Shown here: piece after piece, positions 50,900 to 57,054 of the stretch | Layout of the letters: the number at the start of each line of letters is the position of its first letter | Position numbering within the stretch: the stretch's first letter is position 1 | Assembly (NCBI RefSeq): GCF_001296045.1 | Contig: NZ_LJHS01000037.1 | Location: 1-64,000 of the forward strand | Length of the DNA: 64,000 nucleotides | Direction: 5' to 3' | Source of the DNA: Rhizobium sp. AAP43 | Lineage (GTDB): Bacteria > Pseudomonadota > Alphaproteobacteria > Rhizobiales > Rhizobiaceae | Made by a program: the position numbers and the translations under genes | Notes under the pieces: generated by a model | The model's database searches: none | The model's input: the letters and a program-made list of their open reading frames with translations, nothing else | What the model was told of the DNA's origin: nothing

Positions 50900-51388
50900 A
50901 TGTGGTTTCTGATCAAGGGAACGTTCTATTGCACGGTGACGCTGGTGGCGCTCTCGTTCCTGGCAGCGCCGCCGCATGAGGAAGCAGACGGCGGTTCGCG
51001 GCTGGAAATCGGCGATGCGTTTACCGCGGCTACCGGCGCCTATGAGTATGTCGCCTCGCTCTGCGTCGAGCGGCCCGAGGTCTGCGAAAAGGGCATGGAA
51101 ACCTTCCAGGCGATCGGCCAGCGGGCCCGCGAAGGCGCGCTGGTTGCCTATCAGATCCTCGACAAGCAGTTCACCGACACGGAAGAGAGCGAGAGCGCGA
51201 CAGCAGACGCCGCTCCGGTACGCGCCCCTGCCCGCACCAACGGCAGCATCGAGATCGTCAAGCCGAAGGTGACGCCGGCGGTGGCTGCCGCTGAATTCGA
51301 AGAGCCGATCACCACCGGCACCGTGGTGCCGAGCGCCCGACCGCGCAACCTGCCGCAACCCTATCGCAAGCCGAGCCAGACGCCCTGA
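50900..51388 (+). CDS. DUF5330-family membrane-anchored protein
   Basis: 162 residues: MWFLIKGTFYCTVTLVALSFLAAPP is a signal anchor, followed by DAFTAATGAYEYVASLCVERPEVCEKGMETFQAIGQRAREGALVAYQILDKQF, with two cysteines (about residues 56 and 63) that could form a disulfide. The C-terminal half is disordered and Pro-rich (ARTNGSIEIVKPKV...PYRKPSQTP). The conserved SLCxxRPExC core is the DUF5330 signature of Rhizobiales. Function unknown; divergent from the DivJ-like kinase. Confidence 0.85.
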   Translation: MWFLIKGTFYCTVTLVALSFLAAPPHEEADGGSRLEIGDAFTAATGAYEYVASLCVERPEVCEKGMETFQAIGQRAREGALVAYQILDKQFTDTEESESATADAAPVRAPARTNGSIEIVKPKVTPAVAAAEFEEPITTGTVVPSARPRNLPQPYRKPSQTP

Positions 51389-51444
51389 ACGGAGCCCTGA
51401 ACCTGACACACCGGCCCCTGACTTCAGAGCGGCCATAAAGAGAA

Positions 51445-51577
51445 TTTCGAAGGGCGCTCCCGCCCTTCCCCCGAGCTTGCATCCGGCTGGCCATAGCCGG
51501 ATGCCTGTCTGCCTGTACCAAACTGCTGATCGGCACATGCCGGGCCGCGAGGAGCAATCCTCGCGGCTATTTTTTTG
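51445..51577 (+). ncRNA. Predicted structured small RNA, copy 1 (intact)
   Basis: Three consecutive stem-loops with no reading frame: stem 1 GAAGGGCG / CGCCCTTC (51449-51468) with loop CTCC and a flanking anti-Shine-Dalgarno-like CCTTCCCCC; stem 2 GCATCCGGCT / AGCCGGATGC (51479-51504); and stem 3, a perfect 10-bp intrinsic terminator GCCGCGAGGA / TCCTCGCGGC (51544-51567) ending in TATTTTTTT. A single-stranded region between stems 2 and 3 contains CTGCCTGTACCAAACTG. The architecture is that of rhizobial trans-acting sRNAs. The 5' end is estimated; it might instead be the 3' UTR of the DUF5330 gene, which ends 57 nt upstream. Confidence 0.65.
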
Positions 51578-51641
51578 TCGGTGGGGATCACAGCGACAGG
51601 GCCGACGATCGGCGACCCCTGACTGCCGCGTTCCCTTTCTT

Positions 51642-52250
51642 TCAATGACCAACCCGGTAGACCCGACCGGTCTGCACGCCTTCGATGCTGCGCCGATAGG
51701 CCATGGCGACACGCGCGCCCGGCACGCTGTCATAACCGGGGAAGAAGGGGCCGAAGCGCTCGATCGATTCCGTCAGGACCGTCGGGCTGACGGCATTGAT
51801 GCGGATGCCTCGCGAAAAATCGCAGGCGGCAGCCCTGACAAAACCTTCAATCGCGGCGTTCGACGTTGTGGCGTGGGCGCCTTGGGCAATCGGCTCGTCC
51901 GCGGCGATGCCTGAAGTCAGCGTGATCGAGCCCCGGTCATTGAGGGAATGCTGGCCGATCAAGGCGACGCGCACCTGACCCAGCAATTTATCCTGCAGGC
52001 CTGTGGCGAAGTCTGCGGCTGTCATCTTTTCGATCGGCGCCAGGATGACATTGCCGGCAGTGACGATGATGGCGTCGACCGGTCCGGTTTTTTCAAACAG
52101 CGCAGCGACACTGTCATCACTGGCGATATCCGCCTGATAGTCCCCCTGGCTGCGCCCGACGCGGATCACTTCGTGCCTGCCATCCTGGCTAAGGTCTTGC
52201 AAGACGGCGCGGCCGACATCGCCACTGGCGCCGATAAGAACGATCTTCAT
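51642..52250 (-). CDS. Short-chain dehydrogenase (atypical)
   Basis: 202 residues from an ATG with AAGGAG 6 nt upstream. Starts MKIVLIGASGDVGRAVLQDL (NADP-binding GASGDVG), then IIVTAGNV, LGQVRVALIGQHSLNDRGSITLTSGIAADEPIAQGAHATTSNAAIEGFVRAAACDFSRGIRINAVSPTVL. The usual YxxxK is replaced by a HATTSNAAI stretch, so the classical catalytic Tyr and Lys are absent; this is typical of a subgroup of small SDRs. It is divergent from a LysR regulator, likely its controller. Confidence 0.88.
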   Translation of the reverse strand: MKIVLIGASGDVGRAVLQDLSQDGRHEVIRVGRSQGDYQADIASDDSVAALFEKTGPVDAIIVTAGNVILAPIEKMTAADFATGLQDKLLGQVRVALIGQHSLNDRGSITLTSGIAADEPIAQGAHATTSNAAIEGFVRAAACDFSRGIRINAVSPTVLTESIERFGPFFPGYDSVPGARVAMAYRRSIEGVQTGRVYRVGH

Positions 52251-52326
52251 TGATGACTCCTTGTACATTCGGATCTGAACGGCGCCACTGTTAAACGAAC
52301 TCTGAAGGCGATAAACATGGCTTGCA

Positions 52327-52341
52327 TTCGTTGTTTGCGAA
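52327..52341. promoter_or_regulatory. LysR-type box between SDR and lysR genes
   Basis: TTCG-ttgtttg-CGAA (52327-52341) fits the T-N11-A inverted-repeat pattern of LysR operators and lies 16 bp before the regulator start in the divergent intergenic region. Confidence 0.5.
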
Positions 52342-52356
52342 CCGATGGTTAGGAAT

Positions 52357-53250
52357 ATGGATAAGCTGCGCGCCATGGAGACCTTCGTGGCCGTTGTGGA
52401 TGGCGGCAACTTCACCGAGGCGGCACGGCGGCTTGATATGTCGGCGGTGATGGTTGGCAAATATGTGCGCCATCTCGAAGATCGCCTGGGCGCGCGCCTG
52501 CTGGAGCGCACCACACGACGCCAGGGGCTGACGGATGCCGGTCGTGTGTTTTACGAGGATGCCAAACGGGCGCTGGAATATGTGCGCGTGGCCGAGACAT
52601 CGCTGGAACGGCTGCGCGCATCGCCCTCCGGCACCTTGCGGATCAGTGCTCCGATCACCTTTGGCGCCTGCGTCATCGCGCCCTTGGTCGCGACATTCCA
52701 GCAGCAGTATCCGCTCGTGCATGTCGAACTGGAACTCAGCAATCGCATTGTCGATCTGATCGACGAGGGATTTGACATGGCGATCCGCATTGGCGAACTG
52801 GGCGATAGCGATCTCATCGCAAAAGCTTTGACACCGTATCGCATGGTGATCTGCGGATCGCCTGACTACCTCGCCCGCCATGGCTATCCGGAGACGGCGC
52901 AGGATCTCAGCGCGCATCACTGTCTTTCGCATAGCGTCTGGAGCCGGCATGGCGCCTGGACACTGAAAGGCGCGGATGAGGTGCCGATCACCATCTCCCC
53001 CGTCTTCCAATGCAATGATGGCAACGCGCTGCGCATGGCAGCCCTTGCGGGGGCGGGATTGTTGCTCCAGCCGCACGTTCTGGTGGCCGAGGATCTCAAG
53101 GCCGGCAGGCTGGTGTCCGTGCTTCAAGATTACGTGCCCGAACCGCGAATGGTGCATATCGTGCGCCGACAAGACCGGCGCCCGCTGCCAAAGCTCACGG
53201 GTTTCATTGCGCATCTGCTTGCGCATGTGGGGAAAGAGGGGGCGTCGTGA
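52357..53250 (+). CDS. LysR-family transcriptional regulator
   Basis: 297 residues. HTH MDKLRAMETFVAVVDGGNFTEAARRLDMSAVMVGKYVRHLEDRLGARLLERTTRRQGLTDAG (residues 1-62), then the substrate-binding domain (GTLRISAPITFGACVIAPLVATFQQQYPLVHVELELSNRIVDLIDEGFDMAIRIGELGDSDLIAKAL). It is the divergent partner of the short-chain dehydrogenase gene and belongs to the AaeR/CrgA-like subgroup that often controls one neighbouring oxidoreductase. Confidence 0.93.
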   Translation: MDKLRAMETFVAVVDGGNFTEAARRLDMSAVMVGKYVRHLEDRLGARLLERTTRRQGLTDAGRVFYEDAKRALEYVRVAETSLERLRASPSGTLRISAPITFGACVIAPLVATFQQQYPLVHVELELSNRIVDLIDEGFDMAIRIGELGDSDLIAKALTPYRMVICGSPDYLARHGYPETAQDLSAHHCLSHSVWSRHGAWTLKGADEVPITISPVFQCNDGNALRMAALAGAGLLLQPHVLVAEDLKAGRLVSVLQDYVPEPRMVHIVRRQDRRPLPKLTGFIAHLLAHVGKEGAS

Positions 53251-53432
53251 TGGATGCGGGCGGTCGGATGGGCGGTGCGGGGTTGGGCGGGGAGCGGTGG
53301 GGGCTGGAAGCGTCGTTACGGCGAACATGGTTTGACGCGTGACGCTACCCTCTTGCAGTCGCCAGTTCACGATTGCAAAACGACCGCTCGTGCCGCAACA
53401 CCGAATAGACCTTCCAACTTTGCTGACATCAC

Positions 53433-53765
53433 ATGACGCGCTCACTCACCAAATATGCTTGTCTCGACTGCCAGCGGGTTTTCAAGCGGAGAGCGGATGC
53501 GACGCAGAAAGTCTGCCCACGCTGCGCGGGGCTCACCTACCGGACTGGCTCAGATTTTCGTCCACCCTCAGCCGGTGACAAGAAACGTTGGGCGGTCGCG
53601 GCATTCCTGATCTCGAATGGCTTTCCTTACTATCGGCTTGGCCTGCAGTATCCGACGACACTCAAAGAGGCGAGGCGTTTTGTCGACGACAATGCTTCAC
53701 TGGCTGTAGACATGGACGCGAACAGGACTGTACCGCTTCATCTGGCACGAGACCGTGCGGTTTGA
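53433..53765 (+). CDS. Zinc-ribbon protein of unknown function
   Basis: 110 residues. An N-terminal zinc ribbon CLDCQRVFKRRADATQKVCPRCAG (C-x2-C ... C-x2-C, residues 10-31) is followed by DKKRWAVAAFLISNGFPYYRLGLQYPTTLKEARRFVDDNASLAVD. No ribosome-binding site is evident upstream of the ATG. The codon mix and GC content are lower than in flanking housekeeping genes. It heads a run of unknown small genes to 56.2 kb. No named family recognised. Confidence 0.6.
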   Translation: MTRSLTKYACLDCQRVFKRRADATQKVCPRCAGLTYRTGSDFRPPSAGDKKRWAVAAFLISNGFPYYRLGLQYPTTLKEARRFVDDNASLAVDMDANRTVPLHLARDRAV

Positions 53766-53909
53766 TCAAAGTTGCGGCCTGCCTGGATGCGCCAGACGTT
53801 CATCGGCATTGCCCGAGCGGGATGAGAAACGCGCGCAGCGTTCTGAGGATGGGAACGCGAGGCTGCATTCGACCAGTGAATTCCGAGGGTAAACAGACGA
53901 GGAGGCAAC

Positions 53910-54260
53910 ATGGGCAAGCCAAGTTCGAACGAAAAACAACGGATAGCCGAGATTATGGCTGCGGCTCGTGCTGAGGACTGGGAGAGGTACGCCTTTCTGA
54001 CGGATCGGCCATTCGCCAATCCGGCATCCATGAAAGAACAGTTTGAGGATTCCTCGCGGCTTATCCGGGCTCTTTCTTCGGTGCCCCGACCGGACGTGGA
54101 GGTAGGAACCAACGAGGACGATAGCCGAGTGATCTTCGCCAAGATCGCTTTAGACGACCCGGCTGAAAATCCCATCCTGCTGACTCTCCACAGCACGTCA
54201 GAATGCGCCGACGCCGTTATCAGCATCTGGACGTTCTTTCAGGAGATAGGCTTCGACTAG
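53910..54260 (+). CDS. Small acidic protein of unknown function
   Basis: 116 residues from an ATG with GAGGAGG 5 nt upstream. Sequence: MGKPSSNEKQRIAEIMAAARAEDWERYAFLTDRPFANPASMKEQFEDSSRLIRALSSVPRPDVEVGTNEDDSRVIFAKIALDDPAENPILLTLHSTSECADAVISIWTFFQEIGFD. Soluble, acidic, alpha/beta. The size and acidity resemble immunity proteins, but I cannot assign a family. A family E repeat follows directly. Confidence 0.6.
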   Translation: MGKPSSNEKQRIAEIMAAARAEDWERYAFLTDRPFANPASMKEQFEDSSRLIRALSSVPRPDVEVGTNEDDSRVIFAKIALDDPAENPILLTLHSTSECADAVISIWTFFQEIGFD

Positions 54261-54360
54261 AGCATTTCCGGTGATCGCGGGATCACCATAAACGCGCTAG
54301 GCCCTTGTTTTGACCGCATTGTCCGACGCCGAAGCGATCACGCTTCGGCTGGAAATGCTC
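54261..54360. repeat. Intergenic repeat, family E (full-length copy)
   Basis: Begins agagcatttcc-ggtgatcgcgggatcacc and ends gtccgacgccgaagcg, atca, cgcttcggctggaaatgctc. The terminal GAGCATTTCC/GGAAATGCTC form a 10-bp inverted repeat enclosing the internal hairpins, suggesting a mobile-element-like structure (a MITE-like palindrome). Confidence 0.8.
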
Positions 54361-54453
54361 GATGCACCTAAGCAACTGAATTGCCTAGTCGAATGAGATG
54401 TCGCCCATGTCCAGCGATGGTGACGTCGCATCCTGGCCCGGAGCGGACGCTTG

Positions 54454-55098
54454 TTATCCGCAGTCGAGCTGGCGAAGATATTCTTCACCGCTGATCGTCG
54501 TCCAGCCATCGCTTGGGAAACGTTGAGAGTCGAGGTCATCCGTTGAGAAATAGGCTCCGAAGAAGTCACATGCAGGTTCAAGCAAGGCAATTCTTCGTCT
54601 TAGATCATCGCCGCAGTCGGAAATTTGATCTTCGAGTGCCTCCTGGTTCTCATTATCCATCAGGAAAGGGATCCGTAGATGTCCCATGGAGATATCGAGA
54701 ACCGGATAACTGGGTTCGGCGCAGATGCCGACCATCACCTTTTGCGGATCCCATAAACCACTCCGCAGGTAGCCCGAAACCGAGGTCCCGATCATCGGGA
54801 AATCGTTGCGCATGCGAACGTAGCGACTAAAATTTGTCATCCTCCCCTTATGGGCACCCACGGTACAAAGCTTGTAGGCGTCCAACCCATAGGGCGGCTC
54901 TGGTTCGAAGGATAATTCGAGACCGCCAGGATAGCGCCAATACAACGGCACCGGCTGGTCATACGCATTGGTTATCCACCGCCTCGGTGGCCCAAGCCTC
55001 TCTGCGATTTGCAGGAGCGGCGTGCCAAACTGGAGGAATTCAATATTGAGCGACCTCAAACTCTCTTTGAGCGAGAAGACGACTGGTTGTTTACGCAT
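54454..55098 (-). CDS. Protein of unknown function, possible immunity protein
   Basis: 214 residues from an ATG with AAAGGT upstream. Sequence features: LNIEFLQFGTPLLQIAERLGPPRRWITNAYDQPVPLYWRYPGGLELSFEPEPPYGLDAYKLCTVGAHKGRMTNFSRYVRMRNDFPMIGTSVSGYLRSGLWDP and the C-terminus LLEPACDFFGAYFSTDDLDSQRFPSDGWTTISGEEYLRQLDCG. A mixed alpha/beta soluble protein. The style (conserved YWRYPGGLELSFE, no enzymatic motif, neighbour genes of the same type) fits orphan immunity genes of polymorphic toxin systems; not proven. Confidence 0.6.
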   Translation of the reverse strand: MRKQPVVFSLKESLRSLNIEFLQFGTPLLQIAERLGPPRRWITNAYDQPVPLYWRYPGGLELSFEPEPPYGLDAYKLCTVGAHKGRMTNFSRYVRMRNDFPMIGTSVSGYLRSGLWDPQKVMVGICAEPSYPVLDISMGHLRIPFLMDNENQEALEDQISDCGDDLRRRIALLEPACDFFGAYFSTDDLDSQRFPSDGWTTISGEEYLRQLDCG

Positions 55099-55189
55099 GG
55101 TGACCTTTTGATGGTTCACAAGACTGTGGAGGACTCGCTTGGGATGGCCTGATGTCCGCACTTGGCGTCACGTCCACCCCTCTTGCAGC

Positions 55190-55277
55190 AGCCCTTGCTG
55201 CGGCTGCCTGTTTGCCTCTGCCAAACTGTTATCGATGTCTACCGGGCCGTAAGGAGTGATCCTCGCGACATTTTTTT
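55190..55277 (+). ncRNA. Degenerate second copy of the structured small RNA
   Basis: Aligns to copy 1 from its second stem to the terminator at roughly 75 percent identity (shared blocks GCCTGT, TGCCT, CCAAACTG, ATCG, CCGGGCCG, AGGAG, ATCCTCGCG, ATTTTTTTG). The terminator stem GCCGTAAGGA / TCCTCGCGAC now has mismatches and no compensatory changes, and the first stem-loop is missing, so it looks like a decaying copy. It also contains a local stem GCAGCA/TGCTGC upstream (from about 55185). It lies between two unknown genes. Confidence 0.55.
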
Positions 55278-55360
55278 GGGGTGTTGGGGAAGGCGGCTTT
55301 GGGACGCACACCAGGGGTTGGTGACGTTGTATTGCGTTTCGGTGATGTCTGCCTTTGGCC

Positions 55361-55648
55361 CTAAGCCGCCATTGGTGGCGTACCGTTTGTTTGAAGCGTC
55401 AACATGGCATCCCGAATGTCGGAGTCGGTGTGGAGATACCTTCCTGGTGATTCCCCGAGGTCGACGCCATACAGGAACATTATGCCGCCCCATATGACCT
55501 CAGTGTCGGCCGCTGGAACGAACATCAACGAGCCAACTTCGCGGAGCTGAAGCATCTCAAAAGCCCAGCGGTCGGCGGCGTCGCGTGTCATTCGACGCTC
55601 CAAGACGTCGTCGAAAATCCTACACACGTCTTCACGTGATAGCTTCAT
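55361..55648 (-). CDS. Small protein, immunity-like
   Basis: 95 residues from an ATG with GGAAAG 5 nt upstream. MKLSREDVCRIFDDVLERRMTRDAADRWAFEMLQLREVGSLMFVPAADTEVIWGGIMFLYGVDLGESPGRYLHTDSDIRDAMLTLQTNGTPPMAA. The pattern of conserved WA-x-ML, W-x-x-I-x-x-LYGVDL and YLHTDSDI is like small bacterial immunity proteins that guard against secreted toxins. No toxin gene is within the window, so it would be an orphan. Assignment by resemblance, not a confirmed family. Confidence 0.6.
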   Translation of the reverse strand: MKLSREDVCRIFDDVLERRMTRDAADRWAFEMLQLREVGSLMFVPAADTEVIWGGIMFLYGVDLGESPGRYLHTDSDIRDAMLTLQTNGTPPMAA

Positions 55649-55881
55649 ATTTTCTTTCCGCAAAGATGTCCAAACCGTTAAGCTAAGCGAGTGTGCCGAG
55701 AACGACAAGCTGCACGACATTGTCCGATGACCGCAATTGGCGCAAAACACACGCCGCCATCTCCCCGTATCCAAAACAATCTTGTCTCCAAAACGACCGA
55801 AGCTCTACATCATTTGGTCACGGATGGTTGCCACAAATCCAGAATTCGCGCATAGCGCGCATTTGGGGAGACGGGTTCATT

Positions 55882-56187
55882 GTGCATGGTTGGAGTTGGA
55901 GTTTATTCCTGGCCTTCGCCTTGTTCCCTTACACGGTCGGTTTCCTTTTGCTCTGCTTCTGGTGGCGCTTGGAGTCGATGTTGCCGGCCTGGGGCGTGGC
56001 GTTTGCGTTTGCCGCCTTGGCATCACTGAGCGTGGGGCAGTCGGACGGGCTTGAAGCGGGCCTCGCCTCTATACTTCTGCTGTTTTTCATCATCGGCGCG
56101 GTGAGTGGCGCTGTCGCAAGCGTTCTGATCAATCGGGGACGGGCGTCGCAGTGGCGCCTCGGCAACACCGAGCGGAAAGAGAAATGA
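55882..56187 (+). CDS. Short membrane protein, possibly hybrid at its 3' end
   Basis: 101 residues from a GTG; three or four hydrophobic helices (WSLFLAFALFPYTVGFLLLCFWW, LPAWGVAFAFAALASLSVG, ASILLLFFIIGAVSGAVASVLI). The last codons (RGRASQWRLGNTERKEK) are antisense to an Abi-like remnant on the other strand, so the original 3' end may have been replaced. The start is uncertain: the open frame extends upstream but is not membrane-like there. No family recognised. Confidence 0.4.
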   Translation: MHGWSWSLFLAFALFPYTVGFLLLCFWWRLESMLPAWGVAFAFAALASLSVGQSDGLEAGLASILLLFFIIGAVSGAVASVLINRGRASQWRLGNTERKEK

Positions 56188-56340
56188 CTTCGCGAGTCTC
56201 GCATTGTAAAGATACAAGGCGAAGGCCTCGTTGTTGTGCGCCTTTGCCAGGTAGGTTTTGAATCTCGGCTCGGACAGCGCTGCCCTGAGCGCAGCGACTG
56301 TAGCGGCGTCATATGCGTACGGAACTTGACTCTCAGCCAT
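56023..56340 (-). pseudogene. Remnant of an Abi-like (abortive infection) gene
   Basis: The frame starts MAESQVPYAYDAATVAALRAALSEPRFKTYLAKAHNNEAFALYLYNARLAKSFLFPLGVAEAPLRR, which resembles the first about 60 residues of Abi-like proteins (pattern LSxPRFxTYL...AFxLYxYNxxLAxSFLFPLGVxEVALRN). After ALRR the similarity ends and the frame reads unrelated sequence to a stop, so the gene is truncated at about 56150. The rest of the Abi domain is missing and the neighbouring reading frame runs through the junction. Confidence 0.5.
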
Positions 56341-56637
56341 CGCGGCGACACATAACCGATCACAGCAGTCGAACTGGCCCCACTGGCTTTTGCTAAGCGC
56401 CGTCGACAGAAGATTAAAACACCAGGTCGGGCGAGCCCCCACCTGGTGTTTCTATTTTGGCGGGATTTATCGCACAACGCAACCGCTGGCTTTCTCGTGG
56501 TGGTTCTGTTTCTGAGCGTCTCCCCGCTGCAGTGAGCGCATACGCGGTCGTCCCCTCCCCGATTTCCTCGCTCCCACCCGGTACACAAGCCTCCCCCGCT
56601 CCTCTATATGAGGTCCGACAGACAGAATGGGTGTGGC

Positions 56638-57054
56638 ATGGCGACTTTGGATGCGATGATTGATGATTTCGGGTTCCTCGAGGATTGGGAGGACCGGATG
56701 CGGTATGTCATCGAGCTTGGCAAGGCTTTGCCTGATCTGCCGGAGGCAGAGAAGCGTGCTGAGAACAAGGTGCAGGGCTGTGCGAGCCAGGTCTGGCTGT
56801 CGGTCGAGGCCGGTGACGGGGTCGATCCGGTGATGACGTTTCGGGGTGACAGCGATGCGTTTATCGTGCGCGGGCTGGTCGCCATCGTGCTTCAAGCCTA
56901 TTCCGGCAAAAAGGCCTCCGAGGTTGTCGCTTTCGATGCGCTCGACCTGTTCAGCCAGATCGGGCTTCTCGAACATCTGACGGCGCAGCGCGCCAATGGG
57001 CTGCGCTCGATGATCCAGCGGATTCGCGAAGAGGCGGCGCGGCGGCTGATTTGA
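56638..57054 (+). CDS. sufE: SufE-like cysteine desulfuration protein
   Basis: 138 residues. SufE signature: LDAMIDDFGFLEDWEDRMRYVIELGKALPDLPEAEKRAENKVQGCASQVWLSVEAG with the persulfide-accepting Cys in VQGCASQVWL (about residue 50), then GLVAIVLQAYSGKKASEVVAFDALDLFSQIGLLEHLTAQRANGLRSMIQRI. It accepts sulfur from the SufS desulfurase for Fe-S cluster assembly. No suf operon adjoins it; in relatives this gene also lies alone near mucR. Start: an ATG close to an upstream in-frame ATG ten codons before. Confidence 0.93.
   Translation: MATLDAMIDDFGFLEDWEDRMRYVIELGKALPDLPEAEKRAENKVQGCASQVWLSVEAGDGVDPVMTFRGDSDAFIVRGLVAIVLQAYSGKKASEVVAFDALDLFSQIGLLEHLTAQRANGLRSMIQRIREEAARRLI

Follow-up and report, generated by a model that had tools for sequence, protein, structure and literature searches.

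The available text of Reinkensmeier et al. (2011; PMC3927594) describes 39 families of trans-encoded small RNAs (sRNAs) in rhizobia, some of which are multicopy and lie near mobile elements. Here we describe an RNA found in a 64,000-nucleotide stretch of Rhizobium sp. AAP43 (contig NZ_LJHS01000037.1, positions 1 to 64,000; the window), where one copy (copy 1) lies directly 3' of a DUF5330 gene and a second, diverged copy (copy 2) occurs in the same locus, on the same strand and 3.7 kb away. Our preferred reading, to which we give a probability of roughly 0.6, is that the window holds a native, DUF5330-linked member of an RNA family and a decayed second copy of the type found in Peteryoungia ipomoeae, imported together with an immunity-type gene.

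Like the families of Reinkensmeier et al., as far as that text describes them, copy 1 is a short structured RNA that ends in a terminator (as many of them do) and holds a conserved place beside a gene; the likeness is one of description and not of compared sequences, so that identity with any of the 39 is neither shown nor excluded. EcpR1, in the part of its description available (PMC4414408), differs by its locus, between divK-pleD and rpmG, while PmaR, reported in the accessible text of PMC6234868 as restricted to Agrobacterium and one Rhizobium strain, was considered through this range and not by sequence. UdsC of Rhodobacter sphaeroides, an sRNA derived from a 3' untranslated region (3'UTR) that binds an mRNA leader (PMC9779115, in part), can also be likened by description, with the processing of our RNA presumed. 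We rejected suhB/MmgR (RF00519), a rhizobial sRNA with a terminator, as the score was 12.6 bits (E of 4.1) against a gathering score of 41. At the gathering score, neither the window nor 13 loci of relatives matched an Rfam family, and permissive thresholds gave no credible match. In the open literature searched, we found no paper mentioning DUF5330 and none containing the sequence words of the RNA (spaced sequences or sequences in figures would escape such a search). The family of copy 1, set against the published rhizobial families by description, is apparently uncatalogued and would add to the Rhizobiaceae a strongly conserved RNA family with a clear candidate pairing region.

An earlier reading of the window (the original prediction) had proposed two related RNA copies, at 51445-51577 and 55190-55277, and a covariance-model search as a check, and this part held. 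Within the window, blastn aligned 51498-51577 of copy 1 with 55201-55278 of copy 2 at 77.5% identity over 80 nt (E of 7e-12), with a longest identical run of 9 nt. The alignment score was 40, against a top score of 19 elsewhere in 1482 comparisons (741 places of 170 nt on both strands, excluding the neighborhoods of both copies). Both copies were also recovered by a covariance model (R2) built from 18 relatives, among them the P. ipomoeae RNA, with both window copies and the extra copy of Peteryoungia aggregata (see below) left out. R2 matched copy 1 at 51476-51577 with 80.5 bits (E of 5e-19) and copy 2 at 55182-55277 with 48.3 bits (E of 1e-10), E-values that are rough given the short calibration, and the third-best match in the window (17.2 bits) was the palindromic terminator of copy 1 read in antisense. 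By the model, the two copies are homologous over the entire core, which reaches from the second stem to the T run.

Copy 1 is strongly structured (fold z of −6.1 against shuffles), with four stems by our count instead of the three predicted, the third being a small hairpin. The 5' stem (51449-51468) precedes the conserved core (51476-51577), which is delimited both by R2 and by R1, a covariance model of 25 sequences that includes the window copies. In the family as a whole the order is a 5' stem, a second stem that starts with CUUGCA and ends with UGC, an exposed and almost invariant CUGUCUGCCUGUCCC block, the small third hairpin, and a strong terminator with a T run. In copy 1, the near-invariant single-stranded block, a putative target-pairing region, reads TGCCTGTCTGCCTGTACC (51502-51519), and the intrinsic terminator consists of 11 pairs and a T run (51543-51576). 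When the 25 rows were folded singly, 24 had a strong terminator and the second stem, with cores of −39.8 to −62.2 kcal/mol (their lengths differ), and at 5 of the 12 predicted terminator pairs there are sequences in which both bases have changed and still pair. No third hairpin is predicted for the extra copy of P. aggregata, and in the Ciceribacter group and in two genomes, G006 and G080, this hairpin is out of register in the alignment, which inflates the broken-pair counts of these rows.

In the window, the DUF5330 gene is found at 50900-51388 (PF17264, E of 6e-24) and sufE at 56608-57054 (PF02657, E of 7e-46), both on the forward strand, like the two RNA copies. R1 found a match of at least 40 bits in 41 of the 63 genomes of the genus, in a search with strict filters that may have missed weak members, and all 41 had one such match 3' of DUF5330 on the same strand. 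These are the window, 20 first loci, P. aggregata, 14 further loci and five located by coordinates only (G001, G008, G023, G024 and G031); the sufE side was looked for in the other 36, and sufE was there in every case. The first loci were chosen by blastn: besides the window, 20 of 21 genomes gave a usable match to copy 1, the last one (G033) having just a 27-nt match elsewhere. In 20/20 first loci, in the canonical locus of P. aggregata and in 14/14 further loci, the RNA is flanked by DUF5330 and sufE and shares their strand. In 297 genomes drawn from the family, seven outside the genus had matches above 40 bits, from two Rhizobiaceae genera, and all seven matches sit between DUF5330 and sufE. 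Matching records other than those of P. ipomoeae and P. aggregata bear the names Ciceribacter or Rhizobium. Four family-wide hits of 32 to 38 bits (L132 to L135), whose retrieved stretches contain no DUF5330 and no sufE, were not counted as members, and most R1 matches below 30 bits span only the terminator end of the model. The RNA tree matches the tree of the locus proteins in its main groups. Position, conservation and structure of the RNA are established by these comparisons, and copy 1 is best explained as a vertically inherited member of a conserved RNA family of the Rhizobiaceae, native to the window.

The space between the RNA and sufE (51577-56607 in the window) is an insertion hotspot. 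This gap measures about 58 to 173 nt in 13 of 22 loci and 557 to 5030 nt in the other 9; among the 14 further loci it exceeds 700 nt in 6 (by coordinate subtraction), and overall it is larger than 500 bp in 15/36. In loci without an insert, the upstream region of sufE starts right behind the RNA terminator. A role of the RNA as a leader of sufE was rejected because inserts of 0.56 to 5 kb part the two in 9/22 loci, whereas the region upstream of sufE stays similar (compared by eye). The inserts of relatives carry different genes, including a toxin-antitoxin-like unit and a TonB-receptor-like gene (named by eye), and behind none of them is there a second RNA copy; the comparison with relatives lacking the intervening genes, which the original prediction had proposed, gave a single RNA copy in 21/21 of their canonical loci. 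In P. ipomoeae, the RNA is followed by a gene for 344 amino acids (L057 8163-9197) with no match to Pfam, NCBIfam or PADLOC models.

RNase E cuts at sites with the consensus RNWUU. A GAATT that fits this type lies just 5' of stem 1 of copy 1, at 51442-51446 on the forward strand, and would be a candidate processing site. In 15 of the 22 canonical loci, an RNWTT pentamer, mostly GAATT, is found 29 to 37 nt before the CUUGC of the core, just ahead of the 5' stem, compared to 7.4% of random 45-nt stretches of the window, a result that we take as a lead and not as a test because the range was picked post hoc and the loci are related. According to the available text of PMC6238624, RNase E prefers AU-rich sites in a GC-rich alphaproteobacterium. 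Upstream of the RNA, two sigma-70-type consensus pairs gave no promoter-like score above background, although a promoter of another sigma factor would escape such a scan. Pairing energies of the single-stranded blocks of both copies at eight neighboring gene starts were within background. Taken together, the near-invariant single-stranded block, the conserved GAAUU and the lack of a visible promoter suggest a putative sRNA processed from the 3'UTR of the DUF5330 mRNA that would pair with its targets via the exposed block. An sRNA of this class (type II) is placed in the 3'UTR and shares the terminator of its gene; the position of our RNA agrees with this, and transcription shared with DUF5330 would follow from it.

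Judging from its sequence, copy 2 in the window is decayed. It extends over 55171-55278, since the predicted start at 55190 was too late: the model match begins at 55182 and blastn against the RNA of a relative at about 55171. Neither is its upstream stem lost, as had been thought, given that the second stem is kept, if damaged by one A-G mismatch; it is the first, 5'-most stem of copy 1 that has no sequence counterpart, with a weak hairpin in its place. The uncompensated mismatches predicted in its terminator (55246-55277) are there, two in number (C-A and A-C), and they break two core pairs that are intact in every other row. The terminator energy is only −7.9 kcal/mol, compared to −22.4 in the P. 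aggregata extra copy, −21.9 in copy 1 and −20.6 in P. ipomoeae, and the terminator scan reported copy 1 and missed copy 2. The fold of copy 2 is no better than that of shuffles (z of +1.5, or +0.6 with a longer 5' end), and its core, at −24.0 kcal/mol, is the sole exception among the 25 rows. Its single-stranded block, TGCCTGTTTGCCTCTGCC (55205-55222), carries two changes at otherwise invariant columns. Altogether, 35 columns are invariant across the other 24 rows, and copy 2 alters 4 of them; at columns invariant in all the remaining rows, 18 of the others change none (copy 1 and the P. aggregata extra copy included), 5 change one and one genome (G022) changes three. Private changes number 11 in copy 2, 5 in the P. 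ipomoeae RNA and 3 in the P. aggregata extra copy, with one site that differs in all three.

Two strong matches were found in just 2 of the 63 genomes, the window and P. aggregata LMG 23059 (G060). In the RNA tree, copy 2, the extra copy of P. aggregata and the canonical RNA of P. ipomoeae (G027) form a clade with a bootstrap of 98, within which copy 2 joins the P. ipomoeae RNA with a support of 82. The core of copy 2 is 84% identical to the P. aggregata extra copy, 82% to the P. ipomoeae RNA and 71% to copy 1, and the extra copy of P. aggregata shares 91% identity with the P. ipomoeae RNA but only 75% (72/96) with the canonical RNA of its own genome. Grouping and identities together indicate that copy 2 is of the P. 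ipomoeae type.

Copy 2 is part of a larger block shared with P. aggregata, which covers 54431-55361 of the window (about 0.93 kb; 939 aligned bases, 87% identity) and lies in P. aggregata at 8727-7794 of L121, on a different contig (C11) and at a site unrelated to the DUF5330 locus. In both genomes it holds an RNA copy, intact in P. aggregata, and a gene, which in the window is found at 54454-55098 on the reverse strand and codes for 214 amino acids (85% identical to the P. aggregata homologue). The protein belongs to an unnamed family, with no match to Pfam, NCBIfam or PADLOC models and nothing in the PDB by sequence profile (best E of 1). Two immunity genes, Imm8 and SUKH, are among the neighbors of the homologue in P. 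aggregata; besides them, the homologue itself and the extra RNA copy, the stretch there (L121 6811-10025) holds a PIN-domain gene. The family is sparse, present in 14/394 genomes of the family Rhizobiaceae and 5/63 of the genus (the window counted in both). In two further relatives, genome G225 and a plasmid of Rhizobium daejeonense, the DNA match stops at about the gene start, so there is no adjoining RNA copy. In the former, the homologue stands in a row of small genes, one of which resembles a neighbor in P. aggregata (by eye). Searched against plasmids, the copy 2 block matched one, by its gene part only. In the R. daejeonense plasmid (L203 3355-5703), a protein of 782 amino acids without a significant family match is encoded upstream of the broken homologue, with IS66 genes behind.

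Import of copy 2 together with the 54454-55098 gene would be the simplest story for these data. In the preferred reading, copy 1 would most likely be transcribed together with DUF5330 as far as the intrinsic terminator and would then, most likely, be cut free near the conserved GAAUU site; the released and presumably stable RNA could act in trans, its exposed block pairing with mRNAs. Copy 2 would be an additional copy of the RNA variant found at the canonical place in P. ipomoeae, parted from DUF5330 and joined to the immunity-type gene. The block of about 0.9 kb occurs in two genomes, its RNA intact in P. aggregata and since decayed in the hotspot of the window, where the SDR/LysR pair and the other intervening genes would be further cargo and not an element targeting the RNA.

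Several points weigh against this reading. The immunity role of the 54454-55098 gene would be guilt by association. Of 35 genus genomes with DUF5330, the RNA gave a strong match in 26 and none of at least 40 bits in 9, which may be too diverged or may be without the RNA; one of the nine (G035) has 24.7 bits at the right place. As for processing, besides the range chosen after seeing the data in related loci and a promoter scan restricted to the sigma-70 type, the RNWTT motif is absent within 45 nt in 5 of the 22 loci, P. ipomoeae included (the G013 locus was wrongly anchored). Regarding decay, copy 2 breaks 4 of 20 aligned pairs, and G006, G019, G030, G034, G021 and G080 also break 4 or 5, in their case because the third hairpin is off register. 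Identity between the window and P. aggregata is 90% in the gene, 84% in the RNA and only 75% downstream (55279-55361), so the RNA has not diverged fastest within the block. Finally, about 100 nt went into the RNA tree, and the protein tree was built from three genes, all of the same locus.

The main rival, an older duplication, fits almost as well, although we consider it somewhat unlikely. Here the duplication would have taken place in the ancestor of the window and P. ipomoeae, the latter would have lost copy 1 by recombination between the copies, and P. aggregata would have received the block from this lineage by transfer. P. ipomoeae, which stands beside the window in the locus protein tree, indeed has an RNA of the copy 2 type behind DUF5330, with a 3' flank like that of copy 2. 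Nevertheless, this history requires an additional deletion, and the window is the only one of the 63 genomes with both copies in one locus. A different alternative concerns function, namely that the RNA merely terminates and stabilizes the DUF5330 mRNA at its 3' end and regulates nothing by itself. The fixed place behind DUF5330 and the lack of a visible promoter would agree with it, but few parts are as conserved as the single-stranded block, which termination does not need, and in P. aggregata an intact copy persists at a place without DUF5330; we regard this alternative as unlikely.

The original prediction had also offered a duplication of the sRNA gene; it named the right kind of event, although copy 2 did not arise in tandem from copy 1. 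A recent tandem duplication in the window lineage, followed by gene insertion between the copies and decay, would account for copies that share locus and strand at a distance of 3.7 kb. However, the placement of the two as sisters was rejected (approximately unbiased [AU] test, p = 0.026), copy 2 is nearer to the P. aggregata and P. ipomoeae RNAs than to copy 1, and the block recurs elsewhere in P. aggregata, which makes this origin very improbable.

Five genes are recognized between the copies, namely an SDR/LysR pair, a gene whose protein weakly matches a zinc ribbon, and two small genes without a name, bearing out the pair and the small unknown genes predicted there. The nearest relatives of the LysR protein were found in its own genome (47% identity) and in another genome of the genus (46%). 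The same prediction had suggested that DNA integrating at the 3' end of the sRNA gene may have left the copies as flanking repeats, of which only the uptake of foreign DNA by the 3' flank stands; with no integrase or recombinase by Pfam among the five genes and no att-like core found, integration there is unsupported. The window has no tRNA or tmRNA as a target site. The two copies do not resemble what a phage-like integration would leave behind: even though the gap behind the RNA holds foreign DNA in 9/22 loci, attachment-site repeats of an integrative element using the RNA gene's 3' end are scarcely credible, given the missing integrase, a homology that spans the whole core and is not confined to the 3' end, identical runs of at most 9 nt in the alignment, the inserts of relatives without a second copy, the block elsewhere in P. 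aggregata, and the lack of matches of copy 1 in plasmids and phages (copy 2 was not among the phage queries) and of the family pattern in viral contigs.

The locus marks the stretch between the RNA and sufE as a place where DNA inserts repeatedly, and it shows that a block with an immunity-type gene can carry an RNA gene along. It also provides a natural experiment, with a native and an intact foreign copy in one species and a native and a decayed copy in another. A more far-reaching possibility, which we think distinctly unlikely, is that a 3'UTR-derived regulatory RNA left its host gene and travels with the immunity-type gene as a small mobile cassette, still active in P. aggregata, where it would retune or compete for the native targets, and silenced by decay in the window. 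Just left of the shared block, at 54255-54375, there is a dispersed palindromic repeat, which we take to resemble the RIME type. It has six matches in the genome including itself, four of them on this contig and three of the six partial.

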